Virus record (IMG/VR): IMGVR_UViG_3300007512_000016
Coordinates: 36,629-100,628 of that record
Direction: 5' to 3' (one strand)
Source: a virus
Length of the DNA: 64,000 nucleotides
Shown: in pieces, positions 48,742 to 63,824 of the stretch
Layout: every line of letters starts with the position of its first letter
Position numbering within the stretch: position 1 is the stretch's first letter
Notes under the pieces: model-generated
What the model was told of the DNA's origin: nothing
The model's input: only the letters and a program-made list of their open reading frames with translations
Database searches by the model: none
Program-made: the position numbers and the translations under genes

Positions 48742-49096
48742 CCATAGAGGCATAAGTCTCCTCCACCGCTCGGAGACTCAAGCGACTCAACGAGGTTTTG
48801 ATGGAAGCCTCGACTTTCTGAGCGATCTCCGCTATCGCTTCCGCTCTGCGGGCGTCCGATAGAGTCTGGAGCTTCGTCAGCCACTCCGGGTCTCGTTGAA
48901 GGCAGATGAGAAAGCAGAGAATGGCTTCTCGTCGGATACTCTCAAAGAGTAGCCCATGAGCGAGTTGACTCTGGCCCCCGGAGGGCCACGTCGCAGCAAG
49001 AGCATGGTCTCGCTCGCTGACGAGCGCATGGCTACTTTTGACCCTCAATCGGTCATAGGCGATCGTCACGATCGCTCGTATAGCGGGCTCAGACAT
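48710..49096 (-). CDS. Hypothetical helical protein
   Basis: 128 aa from ATG at 49096. All-helical by appearance: AIRAIVTIAYDRLRVKSSHA, QLAHGLLFESIRREAILCFL and AEIAQKVEASIKTSLSRLSL. It ends 32 nt inside the convergent zinc-finger gene and overlaps the kinase gene upstream by 8 nt. No family is recognised. Confidence 0.6.
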   Translation of the reverse strand: MSEPAIRAIVTIAYDRLRVKSSHALVSERDHALAATWPSGGQSQLAHGLLFESIRREAILCFLICLQRDPEWLTKLQTLSDARRAEAIAEIAQKVEASIKTSLSRLSLRAVEETYASMVKPLGGSGDA

Positions 49097-49685
49097 AAGG
49101 GCGAAGCTGGTTGAGAACAGCTTCCGCGGGCTGGAAGCTGGACCAGTTGATGACGAGAATGTTGTTGCCCATCGATCCCTTCATGTACATCTCGTACTCT
49201 TCCCAGACTTTGACGAGGTACTCGTAAGGGATTCCGGGCCCTTCAGTCTCCTCCGGTCGGTTGCGGGCCTGGATCCGGTTGAAGACTACTTCAGGCGGGG
49301 CTTGAAGATAGACCAGCAGTTCAGGCTCCACCTGAACCTGAACTGTGAGGGAGGCGAAGACCTTTCGGTAGGTCTCGTACTCGCGCTCCTCCATCAGCCC
49401 CATCTGGTAGACCGCTCGGGCGAAGATCTGATCGCCAATCAGGGAGCGGTCGAAGAATTGGATCCCGGCTGTGTCTTGCTGGGCATGAGCAGCCAGGGCT
49501 CGCTGGGTCAACAGGTCCAGTTGCATCGCTAGAGCCCAGCGAGCCGGCTCCAGGTAGTAATCCCCCAGATAGGGATTGGACAGCACCGGCTCTTCCACGA
49601 CCAGAGAGCCCGGAATGAGAGCTGACAAAGATCTACAAAGACTGGATTTCCCTACGCCTGGAGGTCCCTCAATAGCAATCCGCAT
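49089..49685 (-). CDS. Deoxynucleoside kinase
   Basis: 198 aa from ATG at 49685. P-loop IAIEGPPGVGKSSLCRSL; the substrate segment LVVEEPVLSNPYLGDYYLEP; the DRS motif FFDRSLIGDQIFAR; and the lid-type YLQAPPEVVFNRIQARNRPE. This is the dGK/dCK-type deoxynucleoside kinase fold, phosphorylating salvaged deoxynucleosides. With the B12-dependent reductase it would supply DNA precursors. It is divergent from the nicotinamidase operon. Confidence 0.88.
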   Translation of the reverse strand: MRIAIEGPPGVGKSSLCRSLSALIPGSLVVEEPVLSNPYLGDYYLEPARWALAMQLDLLTQRALAAHAQQDTAGIQFFDRSLIGDQIFARAVYQMGLMEEREYETYRKVFASLTVQVQVEPELLVYLQAPPEVVFNRIQARNRPEETEGPGIPYEYLVKVWEEYEMYMKGSMGNNILVINWSSFQPAEAVLNQLRPYV

Positions 49686-49716
49686 GGCTCTAATCACTCC
49701 TGATCAGCCTGTTGCA

Positions 49717-49741
49717 CCACCCTACCGGTGGGATTTTTTTT
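49717..49741 (+). terminator. Intrinsic terminator
   Basis: Stem CCACC/GGTGG with loop CTACC, followed by GA and eight T. The stem is short (5 bp) but the U-run is the clearest in the window. It would stop plus-strand transcripts that read across the reverse genes before the promoter of the nicotinamidase operon. Confidence 0.5.
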
Positions 49742-49780: not shown

Positions 49781-49869
49781 AGAGTAAGAAAGGAGCACTT
49801 CCAACCGGTTTTGAGCAAAAGGCTCAAATTCGGAGGGAAAGCCACCGGCAACGCGAGAAAGAGGTGCGA

Positions 49870-51003
49870 GTGACCACTCAGACCAGCCCCATCTCAGGGC
49901 TCCCTTACCCCGAGTTCTTCCGCCCCTTCATCAACAACCCCGAGGTCGCGGGCATGGTCTATCTGACCCGCGAAGAGGAGGTCGCCGCCCAGGCTCGGGC
50001 CTTCCGTGAGACCCACGGGATCAAGCCCGCGTCTCTGGACGCTTCGGAGAACGGCGGGACCGTCGCGGTGATCCCCGTGGACGTCCAGGTCGGATTCTGC
50101 GCCCCGCCGGACGTTCAGCTCGGGCGGACGGCTTCCGGGCTCGACCTCCCCTGGACCCCGTCGGGCGGCTCCCTGTTCGTCCCCGGGGCCCCCGGAGACA
50201 CCTACCGGGGGTCCAAGTTCATCTTGGACAACCTCCAGTACATCTCGGCGGTCTTCCCCAGCCTGGACACCCACCGGGTGTATCAGATCTTCCACGCCGA
50301 CTTCTGGCGGAGCACGACGACCAAGGCCCCGCCCCCGGCCTTCACCACGATGACCGTGGACACCCTCGGTGTGGTGACTGGCCTGCACCCGGACGGGAGC
50401 ACGGATACCTACGTCACCCTGTTCTCCCGGAACCTCGCGTCGGCCTACTGCAAGACGCTCGCGGACCAGGGCTCGCCCCCCCTGACCATCTGGCCCTACC
50501 ACTGCCGCGTCGGCTCCACCCACCACTCGCTGATGCCGATCCTCTCTGAGGTCCAGATGTTCCACGAGGTCACTCGCCGGGCGGACGACGGCGTGGATAT
50601 CAAGGGCTATCAGGCGTTCACGGAGTCCTACGGCATCGTCGGGGACGAGGTCGGCGTCATCGACGGCGTGGTTCTCGGTGAGGAGGTCCGGGCGGGCTAC
50701 ATCGACAAGCTCGTCCAGTACGACGTGGTGGTCATCTGGGGCGAGGCCCTCTCCCACTGTGTCCGTGCGACGGTGGACCAGATCAAGAAGCACTTCGCGG
50801 CTCGGGATCCGGATCTGGTCAAGAAGCTCTACGTGCTGGAGGATGCCTCCAGCCCCGTCCCCGCCATCCCCGGGTTCGAGAACGACGCCTCCAGCCCCCT
50901 GAACTTCCCCGCGGTCGCCCAGGCGGCTCTCGCGCAGTGGAAGGCCGAGGGGATCAACGTCGTCCGGACCACGGACAACTTCCTCCCCGCCGCCCTGCGG
51001 TAG
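49870..51003 (+). CDS. Nicotinamidase-type cysteine hydrolase
   Basis: 377 aa from GTG at 49870 (GAGGTG upstream). Active-site features of PncA-type enzymes are all visible: catalytic Asp in VIPVDVQVGFC (D71), Lys in VDIKGYQAF (K245), and Cys in VVIWGEALSHCVRAT (C297), plus the family segment WPYHCRVGSTHHSLMP. The enzyme deamidates nicotinamide to nicotinate, feeding NAD synthesis. It is longer than typical PncA (~210 aa) because of insertions. It is the first gene of the operon with the vWA/PP2C/kinase triad and an NrtR-like Nudix protein. Strong C/G-ending codon bias. Confidence 0.88.
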   Translation: MTTQTSPISGLPYPEFFRPFINNPEVAGMVYLTREEEVAAQARAFRETHGIKPASLDASENGGTVAVIPVDVQVGFCAPPDVQLGRTASGLDLPWTPSGGSLFVPGAPGDTYRGSKFILDNLQYISAVFPSLDTHRVYQIFHADFWRSTTTKAPPPAFTTMTVDTLGVVTGLHPDGSTDTYVTLFSRNLASAYCKTLADQGSPPLTIWPYHCRVGSTHHSLMPILSEVQMFHEVTRRADDGVDIKGYQAFTESYGIVGDEVGVIDGVVLGEEVRAGYIDKLVQYDVVVIWGEALSHCVRATVDQIKKHFAARDPDLVKKLYVLEDASSPVPAIPGFENDASSPLNFPAVAQAALAQWKAEGINVVRTTDNFLPAALR

Positions 51004-51034
51004 TCCTTCCCCCACAACACCAACCGAGTAGGCA

Positions 51035-51889
51035 ATGTCTTCCAGCATCCCCATCAACGGTCTCTCCGGTCTGTCCTCCCTCCTCTCGGGGGCATCCAAG
51101 GGTGAAGCCCCGATCCTCTCGCGCTCCTCCTCCCAGGTGCTCGCTGGCGGGGCCTCCCCGCTCGTCGCCCTCGGAGCCGGCGGAGCGGACCTGACCCGCC
51201 AGGGGGTCAACGAGGCGATCAACATCTTCGTCCTCGTGGACGACAGCGGCTCCATGTCCTCCAAGGTCCGGGAGGTCATCGCGGGTCAGAACGCCCTGCT
51301 CGCCCAGCTCCAGAAGGACAGCCGCTCGGGTGACATGGCGATCTCGCAGTGGCGGTTCGGGTCGCAGTGCGGGGTCATCCACCCCGCCGCCCCCCTCTCG
51401 TCCGCCCAGCGGTTCGGCTCGGGTCCCGGGGAGTACGACTACCGGGCCAACGGGGGCTGCACCCGTCTCATGGAGTCCTGGCAGGACATGGTGGCTGCCG
51501 CCGTCGCGGACCACCAGTACAACGAGGAGGTCTCCCCCGTCCCGACGCCCACCACGACCATCTGCATCGTGATGACCGACGGCGGCGAGACCGAGCTGTC
51601 CGGGGCGGCGAAGGTCAAGAAGGCCGCGGAGCTTCAGAAGGTCGCCTCTGACCTCATCATGTCCGAGCGGTTCGTCCTCGCCTTCGTCGGCATCGATCCC
51701 CGCCACACCCCCGCTACGCCCATCCAGCAGTCCTCCTTCTACGCCATCGCGAAGGAGATGGGTTTCGAGGATGGCTGCATCGGCATCGACGCCGACGTGA
51801 CCCGAGCCTTCCTCCGGATCTCCTCCAGCGTGAGTCAGGTCTCCTCGGGCTCCGTGGCCCCGGGCCCCAGCTCCACCTTCTTCACCTGA
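51035..51889 (+). CDS. TerY-like vWA protein
   Basis: 284 aa. A Ser/Gly-rich N-terminal region precedes a vWA domain starting NIFVLVDDSGSMSSKVREVI, whose MIDAS is DDSGS, with the distal Thr in ANGGCTRLMESW and Asp in CIVMTDGGETEL. There is no signal peptide or membrane segment, so it is cytoplasmic like TerY. The C-terminus is a Ser-rich tail. It lies 31 nt after nicotinamidase and 52 nt before a PP2C gene; this vWA-PP2C-kinase order is the TerY-P triad. Confidence 0.85.
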   Translation: MSSSIPINGLSGLSSLLSGASKGEAPILSRSSSQVLAGGASPLVALGAGGADLTRQGVNEAINIFVLVDDSGSMSSKVREVIAGQNALLAQLQKDSRSGDMAISQWRFGSQCGVIHPAAPLSSAQRFGSGPGEYDYRANGGCTRLMESWQDMVAAAVADHQYNEEVSPVPTPTTTICIVMTDGGETELSGAAKVKKAAELQKVASDLIMSERFVLAFVGIDPRHTPATPIQQSSFYAIAKEMGFEDGCIGIDADVTRAFLRISSSVSQVSSGSVAPGPSSTFFT

Positions 51890-51941
51890 TCTGACCGCTA
51901 CCCCAGGCCGGGACCCGGCTCGGGGTCACCCGAGGGTGACC

Positions 51942-52763
51942 ATGAATGACTTCCACGTCGGGGCCGGGTCGGTCCTGGGTCGGCGGCACCTTGAACAGGG
52001 GCTCAACAACCAGGACGCTCTCGCTCTCTTCCAGAGTCCGGAGCTGCTCGTCGCTATCGTCTGTGACGGCTGCTCCGGAGGGAACCTCTCCTTCGATCTC
52101 GACTCCGAGATCGGAGCCAAGCTCCAGGCGACTTCCCTGGTGCGGAACATCGTGAGGTTCTACACCGCTTCTGACACCCCGATGGAAGTCCCTGTCGCCC
52201 TGGAAGCGGCCCGAGCCATGTGGCTCAACGCCGTGATCACAATGGCGTCCACGCTCCAAGAGCCTCTTCAGGACTTCATCACGACCAAGATGATGGCTAC
52301 CGTCGTCGGGGTGGTGATGACCCCGGAGACAACAACTCTCTTCCGGAAGGGCGACGGGATCTATCAGGTCAACGAGGAAGACCCCGTCCTCATCGACGAG
52401 GAGAACCAGCCCTCGTATCCGGTCTACGCTCTCCTGAACGTGGGAGAAAACTCGGGGTTCGTGATCGAGCGGGTGATGCCCACCGTTGAAGTCAACGGAC
52501 TCATCCTGGCGACGGACGGGGCTCTCCCCTTCGTGGTGACCCCCCAGCGGCTCGCCCACGGGGACAAGCCCCTCGGGTCTCTCAGCCAGTTCTACGACCC
52601 TCTCTGGATGGAGCACCCCACCAACATCCGGCGTCGGCTGATCGCCTGCGGTCCCTGGCGAGGCCGGCGACCCGCTCAGAATCCGCTGGATGACGATTGC
52701 TCCATCATCCGGATTCAGAGGAAGCCCTCCGAGGAAACGGAGGAGCCTGAGGAGGCTTCATGA
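51942..52763 (+). CDS. PP2C-type protein phosphatase
   Basis: 273 aa from ATG at 51942 with GAGGG upstream. Metal-binding motifs of PP2C: NNQDALALF, VAIVCDGCSGGN, the central DGIYQVN region, LILATDGALPFVV and DDDCSIIRIQ. It should remove phosphate from Ser/Thr, probably the targets of the kinase encoded next. The end overlaps the kinase start by 4 nt (ATGA), implying coupled translation and stoichiometric production. Confidence 0.85.
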   Translation: MNDFHVGAGSVLGRRHLEQGLNNQDALALFQSPELLVAIVCDGCSGGNLSFDLDSEIGAKLQATSLVRNIVRFYTASDTPMEVPVALEAARAMWLNAVITMASTLQEPLQDFITTKMMATVVGVVMTPETTTLFRKGDGIYQVNEEDPVLIDEENQPSYPVYALLNVGENSGFVIERVMPTVEVNGLILATDGALPFVVTPQRLAHGDKPLGSLSQFYDPLWMEHPTNIRRRLIACGPWRGRRPAQNPLDDDCSIIRIQRKPSEETEEPEEAS

Positions 52764-54619
52764 GTCGGCACGTTTACGTCGGTGGAAAGCGATACTCGGT
52801 AGACCCGAGTCAGCCCACCTTCATCGCGAAGGGCGGCGAAGCCGAGGTCTACCGGTTTGGTAACAGGCAGGCCCTCAAAGTCTTCCACCGCATCGACCCG
52901 GCTGACCCCCCGGATAAGCAGAGGGCAAAGAGAAACGCCCTCCGGCTCAAGGGACAGAAGATCCGCGAATTCCCGACGGGGCTGCCCTCGGAGGTGCTGG
53001 CTCCCATCGATCTGGCGACCACCCGATCCGGCGAGGTGATCGGGTACACGATGCCCTTCCTGAAGGGCTTCTCCGCCTTCCACAAGCTGTCTGACCGGCG
53101 TTTTCGGGACTCGGCGGGCTTGGGGCAGGACGCGACCCATCAGCTCCTCTTGAGGCTGTATGCGGTCCTAACGGGTGTCCACGCAGCGGGGGTAGTCGTC
53201 GGTGACCTCAACGACGGCAACGAGATGTATCGGGTGAAGCCGTCCCCAGACGTGCGGCTGATCGACGTAGACTCTATGCAGTTCGGCCGATACCCCTGCA
53301 CCGTCGCGGCTCAGAGGTTCCTCGACCCTAAGCTTTACGGCCGGGAGTTGGGGCGGGGTCAGTTTTTCACGACAGAGACGGATTGGTACGCCTTCGCCTG
53401 CCTGTCCCTCCAGTCCCTCCTCTGCGTGCTCCCCTTCGGTGGGATGCACAAGAAGCTGCGGACCTATCTCCGGAGGGCTGAGGCGGGTATCTGCGTCTTC
53501 AACGACGCCGTCAGGTACCCGGGCGGGGGCTTCCAGAAGGATGTTCTCCCCGATGATCTCCTCCAGCACTTCACCCAGGTGTTTGAGCAGGGACTCCGCG
53601 GGGTCTTCCCGGAGCGAGTGCTTCAGTTCCGGTGGACGACATGCTCTCAGTGCTCCCTGGAGCACGCCCGCCCCCGTTGCCCGGGATGCTCAGCTCCCGG
53701 TCTGGTGGTTGAGGCGATTCAGTACAACAAGAAGTGCCGGGCTACCCGTGTGTTCACCTGCCCCGGGTTCATCCGGGAGATCAAAGAAGAGCACGGCCGC
53801 CTCCGTGTGGTCTATGAGACCACGGGAGCCGTGAGGCGAGAGGACCATACGAAGGTCTGGGATTCCAAGCCGCCACCCCACACTCGGACGGCTATCGCAG
53901 GTGACTCGACCTGGATCGGCAGCAGCAACGGGGTCCTTCTTCAGATTGCCAAGCACGCTCTCCAGTCCCGAGCGACGACCGGGATCATGGGCAACCTACC
54001 GGTCTTCGGGGCGACCCGGAGATACCTCTACACCTTGGAGGGAGGACACCTCAAGCGGACGGACGCACAGGGCCGGTGGAGGATCCTCGGTTCCATCATT
54101 CCAGGGAGTACGTGGTTCAAGGTGGGGGAAGGATTCGGCGGTTTTGCCTTCTATAAGGCGGGCCACAAGTGGTTCTTCTACGTCTTCCGAGATCACCTGC
54201 TGCCGGTTCAGGGGATCCCTTCTCCGCAGGGGAAGGTCCGTGAGGTGGATTGCGTGTTCTCCGATCAGCACGCCTTGTTCCTCCTCAGTGAGGACCGTCA
54301 GGGGGTCATCGTCAACTCCATGTGGCTGGTGGACGCCAAGGGCAACGTGGTCGGACATGCTGAAGGGGAGGCGGATCAGGTCCGTATGCTCTCGACTATC
54401 TCAGGGAAGCTGGTGTCTTCCGGGAAGACACCACGTATCGTCTGCTCCACGGATGAAGGGCTTCTTCAGCTCGTCGTCAATGACGCTGGCGGTATCGAGG
54501 AATCCAAGCTGTTCACGGACACCCGCCCCTTCGTCCGAGCCGGGGACCGTCTCCTTCAGGCTCCCACCGGAATCTGGGTCGCTGACCGTAGTACGGTCAG
54601 GCTCTTAGAGCTAGGATAA
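52760..54619 (+). CDS. Atypical protein kinase with zinc ribbon and propeller-like C-terminus (TerY-P triad kinase)
   Basis: 619 aa. Kinase lobe: FIAKGGEAEVYRFGNRQALK (Gly loop and Lys40), catalytic loop VVVGDLNDGNEMYR (Asp149, Asn154; the usual His and Lys are replaced), metal-binding RLIDVDSMQF (DVD for DFG). A zinc ribbon follows (Cys295, 298, 307, 310 in TTCSQCSL and PRCPGC). Residues ~330-619 are repeated beta-blade segments (TRRYLYTLEGGHLKRTDAQG type), propeller-like. This layout is that of kinases in Ter-type stress systems. It is likely to phosphorylate the vWA protein or its partners. Confidence 0.83.
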   Translation: MSRHVYVGGKRYSVDPSQPTFIAKGGEAEVYRFGNRQALKVFHRIDPADPPDKQRAKRNALRLKGQKIREFPTGLPSEVLAPIDLATTRSGEVIGYTMPFLKGFSAFHKLSDRRFRDSAGLGQDATHQLLLRLYAVLTGVHAAGVVVGDLNDGNEMYRVKPSPDVRLIDVDSMQFGRYPCTVAAQRFLDPKLYGRELGRGQFFTTETDWYAFACLSLQSLLCVLPFGGMHKKLRTYLRRAEAGICVFNDAVRYPGGGFQKDVLPDDLLQHFTQVFEQGLRGVFPERVLQFRWTTCSQCSLEHARPRCPGCSAPGLVVEAIQYNKKCRATRVFTCPGFIREIKEEHGRLRVVYETTGAVRREDHTKVWDSKPPPHTRTAIAGDSTWIGSSNGVLLQIAKHALQSRATTGIMGNLPVFGATRRYLYTLEGGHLKRTDAQGRWRILGSIIPGSTWFKVGEGFGGFAFYKAGHKWFFYVFRDHLLPVQGIPSPQGKVREVDCVFSDQHALFLLSEDRQGVIVNSMWLVDAKGNVVGHAEGEADQVRMLSTISGKLVSSGKTPRIVCSTDEGLLQLVVNDAGGIEESKLFTDTRPFVRAGDRLLQAPTGIWVADRSTVRLLELG

Positions 54620-54633
54620 GAGGAGAGTTCTGG

Positions 54634-55491
54634 ATGGCAAAGCTAGGCCACGAAGCCAGCCACCTGACGGAGGAGGAGTTCCTGCGGGCATATCAGGCCC
54701 GCGAGTACCCCAAGCCCTCCTTGACCACGGATCTGGTCATCTTCAGCATCGAAGACTGCGTCCTTAAGGTGCTGTTGATCAAGCGGCGCGGTCACCCCTA
54801 CCAGGACTCCTGGGCCCTCCCAGGAGGCTTTCTGGACGTCCCTGGTTGGGAAATCGAAGCCATCGCGCAGAGGCATCAGCTCTCCCTCTCCGAGGGATCT
54901 TCCGTTTCCTGGCCCATCGAGGTGACCAACCTGTACCCTTCCCTGTTTCAGGAAGGTCCGGTTCAATGGGATGTGGATATTGAGGCGGGGGCTCATCGGG
55001 AGCTACAGGAGGAGACCAGTCTCCCCGCCCGCTCTTGTTTTCTGGAGCAGCTCTACACGGTGGGGAACGTCTCTCGGGATCCCCGCACGTATGTCGTGAC
55101 CGTCGCCTACTACGCCCTGGTTCCGTCGAACCTCATGTCTCTGGTCCGTCCTAGAGACGACGCGAAGGAGGCTGCGTGGCTCTCAGTAGAGGAAGCAGCC
55201 CGGTTGCCTCTGGCCTTTGACCACCAGGAGATCCTTCAGATGGCTCTGACCCGGATTCGGGGCAAGTTGGACTACTTCGCCGCCATCGCAGCGGGACTCT
55301 TGCCTCCGACGTTCACAGAGTATGAGCTGCGTGAAGTCTACGAGACGATCAAGGGAGTCGAGTTTCGACCGTCCTCCTTCAACCGCCGTCTCAAGCGAAT
55401 GAAGGAGGACGGTCATGTCGTGAGATCGGGCGGCTACCGCCGGACGGGGGGACGCCCGGCGGCAACCTATCGGTTCTCAAACGGTAGCTGA
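54634..55491 (+). CDS. NrtR-like Nudix/winged-helix protein with a Nudix-box insertion
   Basis: 285 aa. The Nudix domain starts TTDLVIFSIEDCVLKVLLIK, then YQDSWALPGGFLDV. The box is interrupted by about 45 residues before DIEAGAHRELQEETSLP, whose final Gly is Ser. LEQLYTVGNVSRDPRTYVVT and LAFDHQEILQMALTRIRGKL are typical of the NrtR family, followed by the winged helix (LLPPTFTEYELREVYETIKG, RTGGRPAATYRFS). NrtR senses ADP-ribose and represses NAD genes; here it may control NAD-linked genes or hydrolyse ADP-ribose. Last gene of the operon. Confidence 0.8.
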   Translation: MAKLGHEASHLTEEEFLRAYQAREYPKPSLTTDLVIFSIEDCVLKVLLIKRRGHPYQDSWALPGGFLDVPGWEIEAIAQRHQLSLSEGSSVSWPIEVTNLYPSLFQEGPVQWDVDIEAGAHRELQEETSLPARSCFLEQLYTVGNVSRDPRTYVVTVAYYALVPSNLMSLVRPRDDAKEAAWLSVEEAARLPLAFDHQEILQMALTRIRGKLDYFAAIAAGLLPPTFTEYELREVYETIKGVEFRPSSFNRRLKRMKEDGHVVRSGGYRRTGGRPAATYRFSNGS

Positions 55492-56019: not shown

Positions 56020-57189
56020 TCAGAAAAAGTCCCCTTCGATATGCGGGTTGATGAGGTCTTTCATGGTTTTGATATTGACTTCATCGGTGCTGCGTTCTAG
56101 CACGCAGAGGGACGCATCCCGGAGGAGGAAAGGCGGTACCTTTCCGCTATTGCTGCGGATTATATCCCAGGCATCTTCCATGATATCGTGGACCTCCCGG
56201 TGGCCGAAGACGGCGCGGAGGCGTCGGTGATCGATCGCAGATCGGATCACTCCCGTGATGCTCTTCATCTGGCTCAGAATTCTTTTCTCCCGAGCGACCA
56301 GCCCGGGGAACTTTGCGCGCAAAACCGCTTCCTCGTCCTTCCAGTCGAGGTAATGCCACCGGACAGCTCGCTTCCACCGGCTCATCATGGAGGCGTCCTG
56401 AGGACGGGCAGATCGATAGAGACCCGTATCGTCGCCGCCACCGATGGTATTCGCGGAGGCGACGATCAGCGTCCCCGGGAGCATTTTGTGGGTCACGCCT
56501 TCGGGACCCACAAACCGACCCGAGATGGAGTCCATAATCAGCCGGAAGGTCTCCATCTGTTCTTCTGTCGCGCGGTCGATATCCGTGATCAGGAGCACGC
56601 AGGGGATTCGGTCAGTCACCTCTCCCTTGTCGTTTTTCACCTCGAAACCGTCCCGGTACAGCTTGAGGAACAGCCCATCGCTGTAGTAGGAGCCTCTCTC
56701 TGGAGAGATCTCCCGGGGTCGTAGCCAGCCTTCGATGTTGGCTTCAGGTCGAACCTGAAAGACCGCCCCAGGGCGGCGACAGGCCCAGCTCCAGGCAGAA
56801 AGGAAGGCATCCTTCCCTGAGCCAGAAGGCCCCCAGACGATCGAGTGCCTGTTGTATCGAAGATGCCTCGCCAGCCGCGCTGCGGCTGCTTTGGCCGCCC
56901 CAGCCGTGGGCGGCCGAAAGTGGAGGGGCCGGGGGAGACAGGCGTCCTCTGGCACCTGATGGTGCAGGGGGAAACTCGTCCCCGCGAATGTCACCTGAGC
57001 CTCTTTCCAGTCCCGAACCGGAGTCCGGGTCGCAGGGATGCCTGTACGAGTTGTCACCCGGTTCGCCACCGTCGGTGATCCCGGGTAGACAGCGAGGTAT
57101 TCCTCCCCGGTGAGCCCGTGGGCTTCCTGAAGGTGTGGAAGAAGGAACGCCTCCTCCACGCCACACACCTGACACCGCGGTGTCAGCAA
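56020..57189 (-). CDS. MoxR-type AAA ATPase with N-terminal zinc finger
   Basis: 389 aa. The N-terminus MLTPRCQVCGVEEAFLLPHL, followed by QEAHGLTGEEYLAVYPG, is a MucR/C2H2-like zinc finger. The AAA domain has Walker A HSIVWGPSGSGKDAFLSAWS (Asp in the second Thr/Ser position), Walker B CVLLITDIDRATEEQMETF, sensor 1 TLIVASANTIGGGDD, and an arginine region ASMMSRWKRAVRWHYLDW. MoxR ATPases pair with vWA proteins as chaperone-like machines; the partner gene (57183-59432) overlaps it by 7 nt. Confidence 0.82.
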   Translation of the reverse strand: MLTPRCQVCGVEEAFLLPHLQEAHGLTGEEYLAVYPGSPTVANRVTTRTGIPATRTPVRDWKEAQVTFAGTSFPLHHQVPEDACLPRPLHFRPPTAGAAKAAAARLARHLRYNRHSIVWGPSGSGKDAFLSAWSWACRRPGAVFQVRPEANIEGWLRPREISPERGSYYSDGLFLKLYRDGFEVKNDKGEVTDRIPCVLLITDIDRATEEQMETFRLIMDSISGRFVGPEGVTHKMLPGTLIVASANTIGGGDDTGLYRSARPQDASMMSRWKRAVRWHYLDWKDEEAVLRAKFPGLVAREKRILSQMKSITGVIRSAIDHRRLRAVFGHREVHDIMEDAWDIIRSNSGKVPPFLLRDASLCVLERSTDEVNIKTMKDLINPHIEGDFF

Positions 57190-59432
57190 GGCCCCCTCCC
57201 CGCCTGAGTGAGCAAGCTGTCGAGCTTGCTCGTCATCTGAAATGGGAAGTCCGCGAGGCGTCCGCAGAACACCGGGTCAGGGAAGACCTGCTGGACATAT
57301 GAAGCTTGCTGTCCGATGCCGACGCCCACGATGTGTATCCCCATTTTTTCTGCTTGCCTGAGCTGCCACCGCATGACCGGGGCGTTGCTGGGATTCGGTT
57401 GTCCATCCGTGTATACGAACATGAGCCGGTGAGTTTCGTCCCGATCCGCAAGCTCTTCCAGAGCCATCTGCATCCCGTCGCATAGCGGAGTGGAGTGGAC
57501 CGCGTGGTTATTGGCGAACCTCCATTGAACAGCCGGGAAGGTCTCTTCCCACCCCTTGAAAATGTCATAGTGGACACCGTAGGCCCGATGATAGGTCTGA
57601 CTGGCTAGATCGATCTCATCCAGCATCGTGGTGACTCGACGAGCCCTGATCCCAAGAACCAGGGTCGGGCAACCCAAAACGGAAAGGGGCTCGACAATGG
57701 CGAGGATCCCCTCCATCGCGACCTCTTTCATGGTCTTTTCTCGACCGTCGCGGTCTTGGACCCCGGCTTTCGCCTTCATGGAGTAGCTCTCGTCCAGCAC
57801 GATAGCCGCCGCCAGGGTCACATCCAGCCGCTTGCCAGGACGAGCCCAGGCCCGGGTAGGCTTCTTCCGAGCCCGCAGGTCTCCCCAGGTCCGGACCATG
57901 TACCGATCCGAGAGCTGACGCCCAGAAGGGAGACCGTGCCTCACCGTCCTCCGCTTGTAATCGAGGAACCTCATCAGGAAAGAGGATCTCATCGCGGCGG
58001 ATTCCTGCTGAACATCGCTCAACATCTGAGCGGTCTGAGCAAAGTCCCCATGCTCTCCCTTTTGGGAGGGCTTTACTGTCTCCACGATATCCAACTCGGT
58101 AGAGGCTGGGTTCCACGGTTGCTCGCCTGGAAGAAGCTCTCTCATTTCCCGCTGGATAGCTTCCCGAAGAGCACCGGAGAGAACCTCCTGGTGGTCCTTC
58201 AAATCACTCTCAGAAGACTCCAGGGCTCCCGCAGCGACCTCCGCCAGAGGACCCTCGCCCTCTGCTCCTCCCTCCCCCGCGTTCTCTTCCCCGAACTCCT
58301 TCTGGCCCTCAGAGGGAGCCCCTCCCGAGTCGGAGTCCTGGTTCTCATGAGACTCCTCTTCCTCTCCAGAGGATCCCCCGCCTTTCTCATCGGACTCGCC
58401 TTCGTCCTCCGAGTCCGATGGTTGCCCTGAAGAGGAAGGGCTGAAAAAGGGGTTGTCTTCGATCTCCTCCTGGTGCCCACACGCGGTGCAGGTGATGACC
58501 AGCTTGTCAGAGGAAGCCTGCCGCCGTACTTTCAGCTTGTCCGCTGGGGCTCCGCACTTCGGACAAGGGGCCTTCTGGGGCTCCTCGTCCTCCTTGTCCT
58601 GTTCTTGTTCCAAGAGGCTGACCAGCTCCGCGACCACATCCAGGGCAACCCGGAGGCTGCCCAGGTCATCCCCGGGGCCTAAGGTCATGGCGTGATTCAG
58701 CCACAAGGAGAGAGGACCCGCTTCGACCATCTCATAGGCATCCGGGTTCAGAGAGTGGTAGCGACGAAGGGCTTCTTTTTGAAGGTCCGTGTTGTACCCT
58801 TTCCCGATCCCACGAAAGGCCCCCTGAATGACCGTCAGGGGGTTAGCGGTCAGGTGAGGCGTTTCCTTGTCCAACACGTAATCGTTGACCGCGATTAGTC
58901 TCTGTCGGATGCCGGGGAAGCGAGAGCAGCCGCACCTCTCGATCCGGATATCCTCCACCAGATTATCCCAGCTCAGCAGGTGGGAGGCGTACCGAGACCA
59001 GTCAGGAATCCGAGCCCAGCGAGGAAGCACGATCGCGGCGACCTCTCGGGTGGTCAGGTACCGCTTACAGGTGAACACCCCATGTAGTAGCTCGTGGATG
59101 AGTCCCCCTTTCAAAGCCTTGGCGACCTTGAGAGTGAGAATCATCGGAGTCCTGGCGATCACGATCTGAGGGTCGGGGCGGGGATACCCGTTGACCTGAG
59201 TGACCCACTTGGACACGTCCATAGGTGTCGGCTGGCACCCCGGGTTCTCGTGGGCCCAGGCGGCGATGACACGGACGAGAATCCTCGCCGTCCACCAATC
59301 CATATGGGCGAAACCCTCCCCCTTGGAATGCACTGGAGGAGCTTTCTCCCCCATCAGAGAGAAAGCCGTCGCCCTATGGTCTGTCCATAGGGTCCGCCGC
59401 AGCACTTGATTCGGATCGGGTTGATTCCACAT
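57183..59432 (-). CDS. CobT-like vWA protein with HELLH metallopeptidase motif
   Basis: About 749 aa from ATG at 59432; an ATG at 59441 lies inside the promoter-like TTCGTATGAG. Residues ~110-200 hold GLIHELLHGVFT with a downstream DNLVEDIRIERC, an intact HExxH zincin signature with the EDxRIE segment. A zinc ribbon (CPKCGAPADKLK ... CTACGHQE) and a ~130-residue acidic low-complexity region follow, then a vWA domain with LDESYSMKAK (DxSxS), HSTPLCDGMQMAL and FVYTDGQPNPSN. CobT/vWA proteins work with MoxR-type ATPases to remodel target complexes; a protease role is possible too. Confidence 0.8.
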   Translation of the reverse strand: MWNQPDPNQVLRRTLWTDHRATAFSLMGEKAPPVHSKGEGFAHMDWWTARILVRVIAAWAHENPGCQPTPMDVSKWVTQVNGYPRPDPQIVIARTPMILTLKVAKALKGGLIHELLHGVFTCKRYLTTREVAAIVLPRWARIPDWSRYASHLLSWDNLVEDIRIERCGCSRFPGIRQRLIAVNDYVLDKETPHLTANPLTVIQGAFRGIGKGYNTDLQKEALRRYHSLNPDAYEMVEAGPLSLWLNHAMTLGPGDDLGSLRVALDVVAELVSLLEQEQDKEDEEPQKAPCPKCGAPADKLKVRRQASSDKLVITCTACGHQEEIEDNPFFSPSSSGQPSDSEDEGESDEKGGGSSGEEEESHENQDSDSGGAPSEGQKEFGEENAGEGGAEGEGPLAEVAAGALESSESDLKDHQEVLSGALREAIQREMRELLPGEQPWNPASTELDIVETVKPSQKGEHGDFAQTAQMLSDVQQESAAMRSSFLMRFLDYKRRTVRHGLPSGRQLSDRYMVRTWGDLRARKKPTRAWARPGKRLDVTLAAAIVLDESYSMKAKAGVQDRDGREKTMKEVAMEGILAIVEPLSVLGCPTLVLGIRARRVTTMLDEIDLASQTYHRAYGVHYDIFKGWEETFPAVQWRFANNHAVHSTPLCDGMQMALEELADRDETHRLMFVYTDGQPNPSNAPVMRWQLRQAEKMGIHIVGVGIGQQASYVQQVFPDPVFCGRLADFPFQMTSKLDSLLTQAGRGPC

Positions 59433-59497
59433 ACCCCTCATACGAATAGGCTGAAATTTACCCTCTCTTAAAAAAGCGGCAAGAAATCAGGGCAGGC

Positions 59498-59886: not shown

Positions 59887-60083
59887 GCGTCGCGAGAGCC
59901 CGTATGACGGATCAAGAGCGGCTCCTGATGGAGATCGCGACCTCCATCCCGACGCAATGCTCCCGGTGGAGCATGGCGAATCCGATCAAAGCGATCGAGG
60001 CCGCGATCCGAGAGCACTGCCCCACGTCCTGCGGGCAGTGGCTCGCGCTTCGGAAGCCTCGGGAGTCGCAAGAGTCAGTATGA
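59883..60083 (+). CDS. Small hypothetical protein
   Basis: 66 aa from GTG at 59883, coupled by GTGA to the previous stop and by ATGA to the next start. Helical, with TDQERLLMEIATSIPTQCSR and AAIREHCPTSCGQWLALRKP; three cysteines. Coding is supported by overlap on both sides. Function unknown. Confidence 0.6.
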   Translation: MSVARARMTDQERLLMEIATSIPTQCSRWSMANPIKAIEAAIREHCPTSCGQWLALRKPRESQESV

Positions 60084-61021
60084 CGAACTTCCTCCGAGAG
60101 ACCGGGCTGGTTCCCGTATCGGCCAACCCACCTACGTTTGGTCACTGTGCCCTGATTAAGGAAGCCCTGCGGCTCTGCCGCAAGGTCTACGTCCTCATCG
60201 GCTGTAACCGAACCAAGGAAGGAAAGTATCTCTTCGGGGACGATGAAGCCGCGGGCTTGCTCCTCGCCATGCTGGGGTCCAGTCCCGATACAGCTCGGGT
60301 CACGATCCTCAAGACGACTTCCACCGTCGCGGACGTCGCTCTCGGGGTACAGGCGGACGCAATCTTCCGAGGTGTCCGCGATAATCTGGAGGCGGAGCGG
60401 GAGCGGGAAGACTTCGCTTTCTACGATCACATGGTCCGTGGAACCAGCAACAAGCTGCTTTTCGTCCCGAGCCCGGACGATCTCAAGGGCTGCTCCTCTT
60501 CGATCGTCCGCGGTCTGGTCCGGGAACATGCTCCCTGGGTACCCGAGTACGTTCCCGCCGATGTATGGCGTCGGACCCGAGAGCGAATCCACGGTCACAA
60601 GTGGGTCGGAGTATCCAACGCCTCCGATCTCCCTCTCCTTCCCCCGATGGGTCGGACTTGTTCTCTTCCTTTTGAAGAAGCCTTGGAGATCGCGGCCTCA
60701 GACTCGATGCCTTCCGGGCAGGTCTTTCGTGCGATCCCTGACTCGAAATGTCTGGATCGGGTCCCCTTCCTTCAGCGAGCCCTCCGAAAGATGTTCCGAA
60801 GGCGTCTGCGGGACCTGTGGCCGACAGGTCAGCCTGGGTTTTACTTTTTTGTCGGCTGGCCGGACTACGTGGTTCCGCCAGTGCTCTATGACGTTGTCCT
60901 GACCCGGGATCACGTCCAGTACCCGCCGATGATCGCGGAACCTTCAGGTGAAATCTATCCGCGAGCGGGCCGGTTCCTTGACGAGGCGAAGACTCTCTCG
61001 CTGGCGAGGTGGCCTGGATGA
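60080..61021 (+). CDS. CoaD-like nucleotidyltransferase
   Basis: 313 aa from ATG at 60080. The N-terminal ~160 residues match phosphopantetheine adenylyltransferase-type enzymes: VPVSANPPTFGHCALIKEAL (the TxGH-type site), VYVLIGCNRTKEGKYLF, ALGVQADAIFRGVRDNLEAE (CoaD-like RGxR) and LKGCSSSIVRGLVREH (ISSxxVR). NMN adenylyltransferase is the alternative. The C-terminal ~150 residues are a separate unrecognised domain ending near PRAGRFLDEAKTLSLARW. It would transfer AMP onto a cofactor precursor (CoA or NAD). Confidence 0.72.
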   Translation: MTNFLRETGLVPVSANPPTFGHCALIKEALRLCRKVYVLIGCNRTKEGKYLFGDDEAAGLLLAMLGSSPDTARVTILKTTSTVADVALGVQADAIFRGVRDNLEAEREREDFAFYDHMVRGTSNKLLFVPSPDDLKGCSSSIVRGLVREHAPWVPEYVPADVWRRTRERIHGHKWVGVSNASDLPLLPPMGRTCSLPFEEALEIAASDSMPSGQVFRAIPDSKCLDRVPFLQRALRKMFRRRLRDLWPTGQPGFYFFVGWPDYVVPPVLYDVVLTRDHVQYPPMIAEPSGEIYPRAGRFLDEAKTLSLARWPG

Positions 61022-61818
61022 GTTTCCAGCTCGGGAATTGGCGACTCCTCCGGAAGTTGGGAGAGGGCAATTTCGGCTACACCTATCTGGGAGAGCATGT
61101 CCTCCTGGGATTCCAGGTGGCTGTGAAGGTCGAGAAAGTCGGGACCCCGGAGGCGATCGAGGCCTTCAAGACGGAGGCGAGAGCCTACTCCGAGCTGCGG
61201 CACCCCTATCTCCCAACCCTCCATGATTACCTGGAGATGCCCGACCCGAGGGAACCCAGCCGGCTCCTTCGGCTGATGGTCCTGTCTTTCATCCCCGGTC
61301 AGAGCCTCACCGACGCCGTCGAAGAACACGGCAACCCGACTGACGAACACATCTGCTGGATCGTGGATAGGCTGCTGTTTGCCCTCAGCTATCTCAACTA
61401 CAAGGGTATCCTTCACCTGGACGTGAAGCCCGACAACATCCTGCTGAACATCCCCCACCACGAGGCGACCCTTGTTGACTTGGGGATGGCGTCTATCCGG
61501 CCGCGATCCGGGGACGTAGCCCGGGGCGGATCGCCCATGTTTATGGCTCCAGAAGTGTTCGCGATGTTCACTCCTGGTCCAGAGAGCGACCTCTACAGCG
61601 TAGGGAAGGTTGTGTGTTGGCTAAGCGGAGGAGACCCGGCGAATGGCATCTTTGGACCGGACATGGATCCCCGGTTCTCGTCCTTCTTTGAGGAGTGGAT
61701 CCGGCATGATCCCCGGTCCCGCCCTCGTAACTTCGCCGCTCTGCGGGATGATCTGGCTGATCTACGGACCCAGGTTTTCGGCAGAGTCGGCAGCGTAGAA
61801 GCCTGGGAGTCCAGATGA
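61018..61818 (+). CDS. Hanks-type Ser/Thr protein kinase
   Basis: 266 aa from ATG at 61018, coupled by ATGA at both ends. All canonical kinase elements: LRKLGEGNFGYTYLGEHVLL (Gly loop), VAVKVEKVG (Lys), ILHLDVKPDNILLN (catalytic Asp, Lys, Asn), TLVDLGMASIRP (DLG for DFG), GGSPMFMAPEVFAMF (APE) and SDLYSVGKVVCWL. It has no transmembrane or extracellular sensor domain, so it is cytoplasmic. It likely phosphorylates the vWA protein encoded next or host targets. Confidence 0.92.
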   Translation: MSFQLGNWRLLRKLGEGNFGYTYLGEHVLLGFQVAVKVEKVGTPEAIEAFKTEARAYSELRHPYLPTLHDYLEMPDPREPSRLLRLMVLSFIPGQSLTDAVEEHGNPTDEHICWIVDRLLFALSYLNYKGILHLDVKPDNILLNIPHHEATLVDLGMASIRPRSGDVARGGSPMFMAPEVFAMFTPGPESDLYSVGKVVCWLSGGDPANGIFGPDMDPRFSSFFEEWIRHDPRSRPRNFAALRDDLADLRTQVFGRVGSVEAWESR

Positions 61819-62981
61819 GCGGACACGGATACGGCGGTCGGAGCACTCGGTCCCGCCACAACGACGAATATGACACCGGCCACAACTGGTCCTCGGCCCG
61901 GAGCGGCTGGTCCACGCCCCCCAAGACGACTGTCCCGCGTCGGACCACGCAGAGCACCAGGGTCCAGACCCCGCCCCAGAAGCCCGCGGACCTCTGCCGG
62001 CAGTGCAACCAGCCCCTCAACAAGAAGCTCAAGTGTACAAGCTGCGGGAGCACCCACGTCCGTCGGGGCACCGTCCTCCTCCTCGATGGAGGCCCCACGC
62101 TGGGGACTGGTGACAGCGGGAAGTCCACCCTGATGCTGTCCAAGCCGGGGCAGTTGAACGCCAAGGTGAAGCCCCTGAAGGCGACTGCTCGGAACGTCGC
62201 TGTCTTCGCGATGGACATGACCGGGTCGATGGGCACGGCGAAGGACGAGATCATCAAGAGAGCCCCCGTTCTCTACTCCGACCTTCAGGAACTTCTTGGC
62301 GACGACGTCGAGATCCTCCTCATCACCTTCGGTGATGCGATTACTCAGGATGAGATCCGGGTGGTGGACTTCGGACGCGGGCCCATCCTGGACATTCACG
62401 TCCAGGCTGTCCACCAGAAGTGTCGGGGAGGTGGCAACCGCGTCGAGAGCCAGGATCTCGTCGCTCTCTACCTCGATCAGATGGTGGACTTCACGCAGGC
62501 AACCAATGTCTTCGTCTTCTTCGTCACGGACGAAGGGGTTCCCCTGAAGATGGATCGTCGCTGGGCGACGAAGTACGTGGGCGAGGCCGCGATGGCTGGT
62601 TACCCCGAGCACAACGACACCACCCGGGTCTTCGACTCCCTCGCCAAGAAGGCGAAGGTGTTCACGATCCTGAAGCCGGTGGACCACCCCTTCAACAAGC
62701 GGTTTGCCGCCTCTATGAGGCAGTCCTGGGCGACCGTGCTGGCCTCCCCCGACTTCATCCTCGACCTCTCCGATATCCGCCGCTGTGTGGATGTGGCGGT
62801 GGGCGCCATCGCGAAGAGCCTCGGGAAGCTGGCGACGTTTGAGAAGAATCTCGCCGCTCGGCAGACCGACCCCCGCTACCGCTCCCAGAACATCCAGACG
62901 GTCATGGGCACGATCATGAACGTCCCCGGAGGCACCCCCAACATCAAGCCCCCGGCCTCGGTCCCGGACTTCTTCAAGTAG
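61815..62981 (+). CDS. vWA protein with zinc ribbon
   Basis: 388 aa. The N-terminal ~60 residues are Ser/Thr/Arg/Gly-rich and likely disordered, a possible phosphorylation region. A zinc ribbon follows (LCRQCNQPLNKKLKCTSCGS), then GTVLLLDGGPTLGTGDSG and a vWA domain with MIDAS VFAMDMTGSMGTAKDEII (DxTxS), LLITFGDAITQDEIRVVDFG, and FVTDEGVPLKMD. The end is ASVPDFFK. It is coupled by ATGA to the kinase, suggesting a kinase-substrate or kinase-adaptor pair. Confidence 0.83.
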   Translation: MSGHGYGGRSTRSRHNDEYDTGHNWSSARSGWSTPPKTTVPRRTTQSTRVQTPPQKPADLCRQCNQPLNKKLKCTSCGSTHVRRGTVLLLDGGPTLGTGDSGKSTLMLSKPGQLNAKVKPLKATARNVAVFAMDMTGSMGTAKDEIIKRAPVLYSDLQELLGDDVEILLITFGDAITQDEIRVVDFGRGPILDIHVQAVHQKCRGGGNRVESQDLVALYLDQMVDFTQATNVFVFFVTDEGVPLKMDRRWATKYVGEAAMAGYPEHNDTTRVFDSLAKKAKVFTILKPVDHPFNKRFAASMRQSWATVLASPDFILDLSDIRRCVDVAVGAIAKSLGKLATFEKNLAARQTDPRYRSQNIQTVMGTIMNVPGGTPNIKPPASVPDFFK

Positions 62982-62984
62982 CCC

Positions 62985-63824
62985 ATGAATATCCTCGCGA
63001 TCAGTGATCTTCACCTCGGAAAGACCGGGGTGGAGCAAGGAATTGACTGGACCACCTTCTTTGTAGAAGTGCTCCAGCGGGCTCATCAGATGGCTCGGAC
63101 GCGGGACTATGACGTCCTCTACTTCGGGGGAGACGCCGCGGAGAAGGCTGATACCAGGGACCCGGCCTCCAACCTCAAGGAAGCCATTCGGCTCCTCTCA
63201 GAGATTCCCATCGCTCAGAAACTCTGGGTGATGGGGAACAACGACCTGGAGTGCCTCTCCGGCCCTCTTGATACCTACTCCGAAGAGATGCAAGGTCTCC
63301 TCGGAGACCGGTTCCACCTCTTAGACGCCGCTCCCTTCCAAGCCGGAAAGGTGGGCTTCTTCGGGAACATCGGGGGCCACAACGGGTCGTTGTGGAAGCC
63401 GCCCGCGGTCTCCGAACCGGAAGTCATCGCTCTGGAAGAAGAGATGATCCGGGAGGATGAGATCGGCTGGGCTGCTCACTTTGGCCCGCGGGCCGATTTG
63501 GGTCCGCGTCAGTTCTATCTGATGGCTCAAGGCCGGATGCTGGCTCATTATCGCTTGCTCGCGGACATGGACCAGCTCGTGATGGGGACCCACTTCGTCC
63601 CGAGCCCCGACTTCGTCCTCTACGGGCAGAGCCCCAAATATGATTGGCTGAACTGGTTCATGGGCTACGACGCCATGAGCCTCCCGCTTCCATTCTGGGA
63701 AGACGACCGACTCTCCCTCGGGCTCACCGGCCACACCCATCGATCAGCCTCGATGTTCCTCGGAGAGGTCCCCGTCATCAACGTCTCTGGACCCGAGCAA
63801 CCCCACTGGCTTCACCTTGAATAA
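62985..63824 (+). CDS. Calcineurin-like metallophosphoesterase
   Basis: 279 aa from ATG at 62985. Motifs in order: MNILAISDLHLGKTG, DVLYFGGDAAEKAD, WVMGNNDLECLSG, GKVGFFGNIGGHNGS, and LTGHTHRSASMF. This is a class III phosphoesterase, possibly acting on nucleotides or phosphoproteins. It follows the vWA gene by 3 nt in the same operon, and similar enzymes occur near vWA/kinase modules. It is not closely like the Mre11-type protein at 21.9 kb. Confidence 0.85.
   Translation: MNILAISDLHLGKTGVEQGIDWTTFFVEVLQRAHQMARTRDYDVLYFGGDAAEKADTRDPASNLKEAIRLLSEIPIAQKLWVMGNNDLECLSGPLDTYSEEMQGLLGDRFHLLDAAPFQAGKVGFFGNIGGHNGSLWKPPAVSEPEVIALEEEMIREDEIGWAAHFGPRADLGPRQFYLMAQGRMLAHYRLLADMDQLVMGTHFVPSPDFVLYGQSPKYDWLNWFMGYDAMSLPLPFWEDDRLSLGLTGHTHRSASMFLGEVPVINVSGPEQPHWLHLE

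Follow-up and report, generated by a model that had tools for sequence, protein, structure and literature searches.

What does a set of three genes encoding a von Willebrand factor A (vWA) protein, a PP2C phosphatase and a kinase, a set known from bacterial TerY-P systems, do in the genome of a phage? The question is raised by a stretch of 64,000 nucleotides (the window), which comprises bases 36629-100628 of the virus record IMGVR_UViG_3300007512_000016 (100,628 bases in total) and in which the three genes occupy positions 51035..51889, 51936..52763 and 52760..54619, all on the + strand. A preliminary description had located the genes correctly and had interpreted them as a phage-borne TerY-P triad that might inhibit or replace a tellurium-resistance/stress (Ter) response of the host. 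We found that the trio represents a known triad with a new set of partners. It appears to form a branch of its own within the TerY-P/Yeg triads, one that is linked to the salvage of nicotinamide adenine dinucleotide (NAD). The kinase and the phosphatase probably control NAD salvage reversibly during infection, a control that is perhaps directed against NADase defences.

The trio forms the core of a five-gene operon (49870-55491) with the order nicotinamidase, vWA protein, PP2C phosphatase, kinase and NrtR-like regulator, of which the two flanking genes had been overlooked. The genes of the trio had been described as overlapping, which holds for the PP2C and kinase genes (4 nucleotides) and not for the vWA and PP2C genes, which lie 46 nucleotides apart. 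The last gene (54634..55491, +) starts 14 nucleotides past the end of the kinase gene and encodes an NrtR-type regulator, in which a Nudix domain (PF00293, 52.2 bits) is fused with the NrtR winged helix (PF21906 NrtR_WHD, 37.3 bits), both exceeding the Pfam cut-off.

The first gene of the operon (49870..51003, +) is predicted to encode a divergent, PncA-like nicotinamidase of 377 amino acids. Its start was set at the GTG at 49870 by homology to the closest related locus (L004), the listed start of the open reading frame (ORF) at 49576 being too early and a GTG at 49864 being an alternative. The best PDB matches of the family profile were nicotinamidases (yeast Pnc1, 2h0r, 8e-16), the ten top Foldseek matches of the AlphaFold model (pLDDT 92.3) were all nicotinamidases or pyrazinamidases, and the Asp-Lys-Cys catalytic triad (D71/K245/C297) and the Asp-His-His metal site (D133/H135/H211) that characterize PncA were invariant in 26 relatives. 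It is quite improbable that the protein is instead a cysteine hydrolase that shares this fold but acts on another amide and is connected to NAD only indirectly. Its strong divergence (a Pfam scan of the window copy gave no match) and the N-terminal extension of ~65 residues that members of this branch have in front of the catalytic domain would fit such a role, but the structural matches, the invariant residues and the linkage of the gene to PncB, NadE and NadD argue against it.

That linkage emerged from a census in which relatives were retrieved by the kinase alone and all neighbouring ORFs were clustered without prior choice. Apart from the trio itself, the neighbour found most often was a hydrolase of the nicotinamidase/isochorismatase fold, present in 63 of 68 non-redundant viral loci; the vWA gene was present in 64 of these loci, the PP2C gene in 67 and all four genes in 61. 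At least one further NAD gene was encoded in 37 of the 68 (PncB in 23, NadE in 22, NadD in 14 and Nudix/NrtR in 22, where the Nudix counts may take in Nudix proteins other than NrtR). Among the bacterial loci, 52 of 72 contained the nicotinamidase, or 52 of the 66 that belong to the same clade (mainly Myxococcota and Chloroflexota), the other six being classic triads or planctomycete/acidobacterial outgroups without nicotinamidase and several further loci being cut by contig ends. The nicotinamidase gene precedes the vWA gene at a distance of at most 300 nucleotides in 47/61 viral and 45/48 bacterial pairs. The order is mostly nicotinamidase-vWA-PP2C-kinase in phages and PP2C-kinase-nicotinamidase-vWA, often with PncB in front, in Myxococcota and Chloroflexota. 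The set recurs in dozens of further phages with large genomes and in soil bacteria.

NadE was encoded in 33 of the 48 whole viral records and lay within 10 kb of the kinase gene in 20 records, as compared to 3.3 expected (200,000 random draws never gave more than 13). In L004 the genes for a PncB-like protein, NadE, nicotinamidase, vWA protein, PP2C, kinase, ADP-ribosylglycohydrolase, Nudix/NrtR and NadD were found together, and its PncB family was confirmed by a match to solved nicotinate phosphoribosyltransferases (3.7e-24). When the same profiles were applied to 11 classic loci (that of Escherichia coli, seven on plasmids and three planctomycete/acidobacterial ones), no nicotinamidase, PncB, NadE, NadD or Nudix gene was found nearby.

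How does the trio relate to the known triads? The TerY-P triad (Anantharaman 2012 and Gao 2020, as summarized in PMC11090510) is described as a TerY-like vWA protein, a PP2C phosphatase and a zinc-ribbon Ser/Thr kinase, and E. coli yegL-pphC-yegI represents the same trio. For comparison we used independently annotated vWA-PP2C-kinase sets on plasmids of Sinorhizobium, Rhizobium, Mesorhizobium, Granulicella and Methylocystis. The window kinase and phosphatase matched those of the Sinorhizobium (S. meliloti) triad in pairwise comparison (4e-15 and 2e-8), and the vWA protein matched the vWA protein of classic triads in profile-profile comparison (96.5%, 9e-10; unrelated control 0.16%). The homology proposed in the preliminary description is thus borne out, and the likeness extends to the order vWA-PP2C-kinase, the location of the PP2C gene in the same operon and the Cys4 zinc ribbon that follows the kinase domain. 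The branch differs from the classic triad in its constant association with nicotinamidase and NAD-salvage genes, in the propeller-like domain of its kinase and, as far as the classic kinases were sampled, in its separate position in the kinase tree. On the rhizobial plasmids (L159, L160, L166 and L169) the classic triads adjoin His-Xaa-Ser (hxsABC) radical-SAM gene sets, possibly a different partner for the classic branch.

The vWA protein (284 amino acids, + strand) is cytoplasmic and YegL/TerY-like (phrog_7371, 2.8e-11), and its MIDAS motif, D69-x-S71-x-S73 with T143 and D182, is complete and conserved, as had been noted before. Its profile matched integrin I-domains and CobT in the PDB, where searches with profiles worked and searches with single proteins gave nothing useful. 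Single-family Pfam, NCBIfam and PADLOC scans of the vWA protein and the kinase were too weak to decide (PF00092 14.1 bits and PF00069 12.5 bits, both under the cut-off), and family profiles were used instead. The PADLOC TerY model gave no match to the window vWA protein at E <= 1 and barely matched YegL as well. PADLOC matches to PD-T4-6 and MkoA kinases and to PDC-M21C phosphatases were discarded; they were weak, were equalled by matches to the YegI of E. coli or to S. meliloti proteins, and indicate generic kinase/PP2C kinship only. The PphC-like Ser/Thr phosphatase (275 amino acids, +) was recognized directly, as in the preliminary description, with 46.1 bits for PF13672 (cut-off 24), intact metal ligands and the invariant motifs D27, D44-G45, G139-D-G, D194-G and D253-D254.

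The YegI/TerY-P-type kinase (619 amino acids, +) comprises a kinase domain (residues ~1-292), a Cys4 zinc ribbon (295-310, with C295, C298, C307 and C310) and an all-beta C-terminal domain (~318-619); the zinc ribbon had been recognized earlier and the C-terminal domain had been missed. Both Foldseek searches with the AlphaFold model (pLDDT 92.9) and the family profile matched protein kinases. We read the C-terminal domain of ~300 residues, on the basis of the model, as propeller-like, because LRRK2 (a kinase followed by WD40) was among the best solved Foldseek matches, next to other kinases, and the beta-propeller BtuG2 was among the top ones. Kinases of the Myxococcota/Chloroflexota clade have the zinc ribbon, whereas those of the huge-phage clade lack it (absent from 64 of 67 viral sequences). 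E. coli YegI has a single CxxC after the kinase domain, and its C-terminal half aligns poorly with that of the window kinase.

The motif letters of the kinase (VGDLNDGN and IDVD) are as first described, with the usual His and Lys of the catalytic loop missing and DVD in the place of DFG. They had been taken as a sign that the activity of the enzyme may be unusual, a view that was not supported. Judged from the alignment, these are features of the whole family and not a loss in this phage: YegI has GDVN...LIDSDS, where GDVN and DSD correspond to GDLN and DVD in the window, and across 139 relatives K40, D149, N154 and D169 are near-invariant, whereas other residues consistently take the place of the HRD His-Arg and of the Lys. 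The kinase is expected to be active, because the VAIK lysine (Lys40), the catalytic aspartate (Asp149) and the DFG aspartate (Asp169) are kept.

In the kinase tree, for which few classic members were sampled and a midpoint root was used, the NAD-linked kinases were separated from the classic ones with a support of 100 and came out as sister to this small classic sample. They fall into two clades, one of Myxococcota/Chloroflexota, which includes the window, L004 and another locus (L013), and one of huge phages (61 viral and 21 bacterial or metagenome-assembled genome rows). At least seven switches between the labels phage and bacterium are placed on branches with good support, which implies that the genes moved between phages and bacteria.

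The origin of the DNA itself was also considered. The window kinase is nested in a clade that consists mostly of myxobacterial chromosomal sequences, as would be expected if the operon were host DNA that was mis-binned as viral. This explanation is extremely improbable: the same 100-kb record contains genes for a portal protein, the large subunit of the terminase, ribonucleotide reductase and the clamp loader, the operon recurs with 100% identity on an independent second viral contig up to the contig end inside the kinase gene, and the 68 related viral loci include three huge-phage genomes of 460-595 kb. The trio is thus located in genuine phage DNA, as had been assumed. Detection of the terminase by PF03237 in only 14 of 48 records makes that profile a weak test of phage nature.

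A relation to the Ter response was not observed. TerD was absent from all 48 viral records in which this kinase is encoded, and no Ter, restriction or DNA-processing gene was present in the operon, although that association is not universal even among classic triads. The proposed inhibition or replacement of a host Ter response was therefore set aside in favour of control of NAD salvage, because TerD is absent and the neighbours are NAD genes. The same observations bear on the possibility that the kinase, phosphatase and vWA protein exclude superinfecting phages in the manner of a TerY-P defence module, with the nicotinamidase in an effector or signal arm instead of in salvage. TerY-P triads, which consist of the same gene trio, protect Pseudomonas aeruginosa from phages (PMC10889362) and accompany CoCoNuT restriction systems (PMC11090510). 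Nevertheless, such a role is unlikely here: the operon lacks a nuclease, helicase, McrBC or TerD partner, the constant neighbours are biosynthetic enzymes that build NAD rather than destroy it, and the NAD-linked clade stands apart from the classic triads sampled.

Control of NAD salvage could work as follows. The nicotinamidase would convert nicotinamide, as released by host NADases that destroy NAD, to nicotinate for the Preiss-Handler route, of which PncB, NadD and NadE are encoded by many sister phages and could be supplied by the host in the case of the window phage. The kinase would phosphorylate a partner that is held by the vWA protein and its MIDAS, with the nicotinamidase and the vWA protein itself as the likeliest candidates, and thereby set the activity of the pathway, and the phosphatase would reverse this phosphorylation. 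The propeller-like domain and the zinc ribbon of the kinase are candidate sensors or docking sites, and the NrtR-like protein may set transcription in response to a ligand of the ADP-ribose type. The purpose would be to rebuild NAD after host NADases have released nicotinamide, as suggested by the gene content and by analogy with published NAD-restoration systems of phages (PMC9503650, PMC13232231). A wider form of this scheme, in which phages and bacteria share a widespread system that detects the state of NAD, or damage, through the propeller-like domain of the kinase, whose kinase and phosphatase switch the nicotinamidase on and off via the vWA adaptor and with which phages hold their NAD against NAD-depleting immunity, is conceivable and is put forward tentatively.

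Several points weigh against control of NAD salvage. The figure of 63/68 describes this kinase subfamily only and not all phage TerY-P kinases, because phage kinases with NAD genes as known neighbours had served to build the viral search patterns, which would miss any phage that has a classic TerY-P kinase. No match to NadE, NAPRT or PncB was found on the window contig and its longer copy, so that this phage would depend on enzymes of its host or on unassembled parts, and in several other phages the NAD enzymes were far from the kinase or not found. The proposal is computational throughout: the identities of the genes, their intact active sites, their conserved association and their location in a phage are established, whereas the target of phosphorylation, the direction of the control, the ligand and the use against NAD-depleting defence are inferred.

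The nicotinamidase could also serve to clear nicotinamide as an inhibitor of sirtuins and ADP-ribosyltransferases, in which case the triad would tune ADP-ribosylation signalling by the phage and not the supply of NAD. In line with this, a longer assembly (G001) of this virus contains, beyond the window, a likely sirtuin (L163 8369-9214, -), recognized by eye only from the motif GAGIS...GIPTFRG, and NrtR-type regulators sense ADP-ribose (PMC9503650). We regard this explanation as rather unlikely, since ADP-ribosylglycohydrolase and macro domains occur in few sister loci (3/68 and 2/68 viral loci) as compared to PncB (23) and NadE (22).

Reversible control of salvage by the kinase and the phosphatase would set the window apart from the known NAD systems. 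Synthesis of NAD in phages by NadV/NadM/NadR (PMC9503650) and reconstitution by NARP1 (cited in PMC13232231) are likewise phage-borne forms of NAD restoration with an expected role against NADase defences; as far as the searched text of these two papers goes, the window differs in its deamidating, PncA-type route and in its kinase/phosphatase/vWA control unit, and a term search of both yielded no nicotinamidase, PP2C or kinase/vWA control unit on phage NAD genes. The huge phage 5-SewaE encodes a four-enzyme set that also leads from nicotinamide to NAD (PMC10747093), and the terms kinase, phosphatase and von Willebrand did not occur in the searched text. The ARG-centred host systems, for which a role in host defence was proposed (PMC9503650, section 3.8), share with the loci described here NrtR-like Nudix-HTH (helix-turn-helix) regulators, vWA chaperones, phosphatases and, in some loci, ADP-ribosylglycohydrolase, but their phosphatases belong to other superfamilies and no kinase or nicotinamidase was described. 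We found no description of a kinase-phosphatase-vWA unit tied to a nicotinamidase; its novelty is provisional, because subscription literature was outside the search.

The nicotinamidase as a constant partner narrows the question of what TerY-P triads act on: for this branch it provides a candidate substrate, with nicotinamide, nicotinate and NAD as the measurable output. If the proposal is correct, phages do more than rebuild NAD, since they also govern this process through phosphorylation, and NAD salvage in Myxococcota and Chloroflexota may be under the control of the same unit.

Ahead of the first gene, in the 5' leader, a strong terminator-like hairpin followed by T8 (49717..49739, +) was picked up by a pattern scan only and is a possible attenuator of the NAD operon; it had no match in Rfam, no riboswitch was found ahead of the operon, and the scan for promoters and terminators could not place a promoter. 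A deoxynucleoside kinase gene (49089-49697, -; PF01712, 119.8 bits) is divergently oriented from the operon. On the other side, genes for a CobS-like AAA+ ATPase and a long CobT-like protein with a zinc ribbon and a C-terminal vWA domain (56020-59441, -) adjoin the operon, and a third vWA protein is encoded near this pair.

A second, unrelated cassette (59957-63824, +) encodes a CoaD/NadD-like HIGH-type nucleotidyltransferase, a canonical Hanks kinase (PF00069, 97.8 bits), a zinc-ribbon and vWA protein with the MIDAS sequence DMTGS, and a calcineurin-like metallophosphoesterase. The nucleotidyltransferase (59957-61021) may be a second NAD enzyme, but it is CoaD-like as much as NadD-like. The kinase-vWA pair recurs in the huge phage LR745208 (L170 6722-8768), where a J-domain precedes the kinase. 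Two long phage ORFs in another locus (L007 5805-7718 and 10939-15012, -) have an intein-bearing look, and the first of the two matches LAGLIDADG homing endonucleases.

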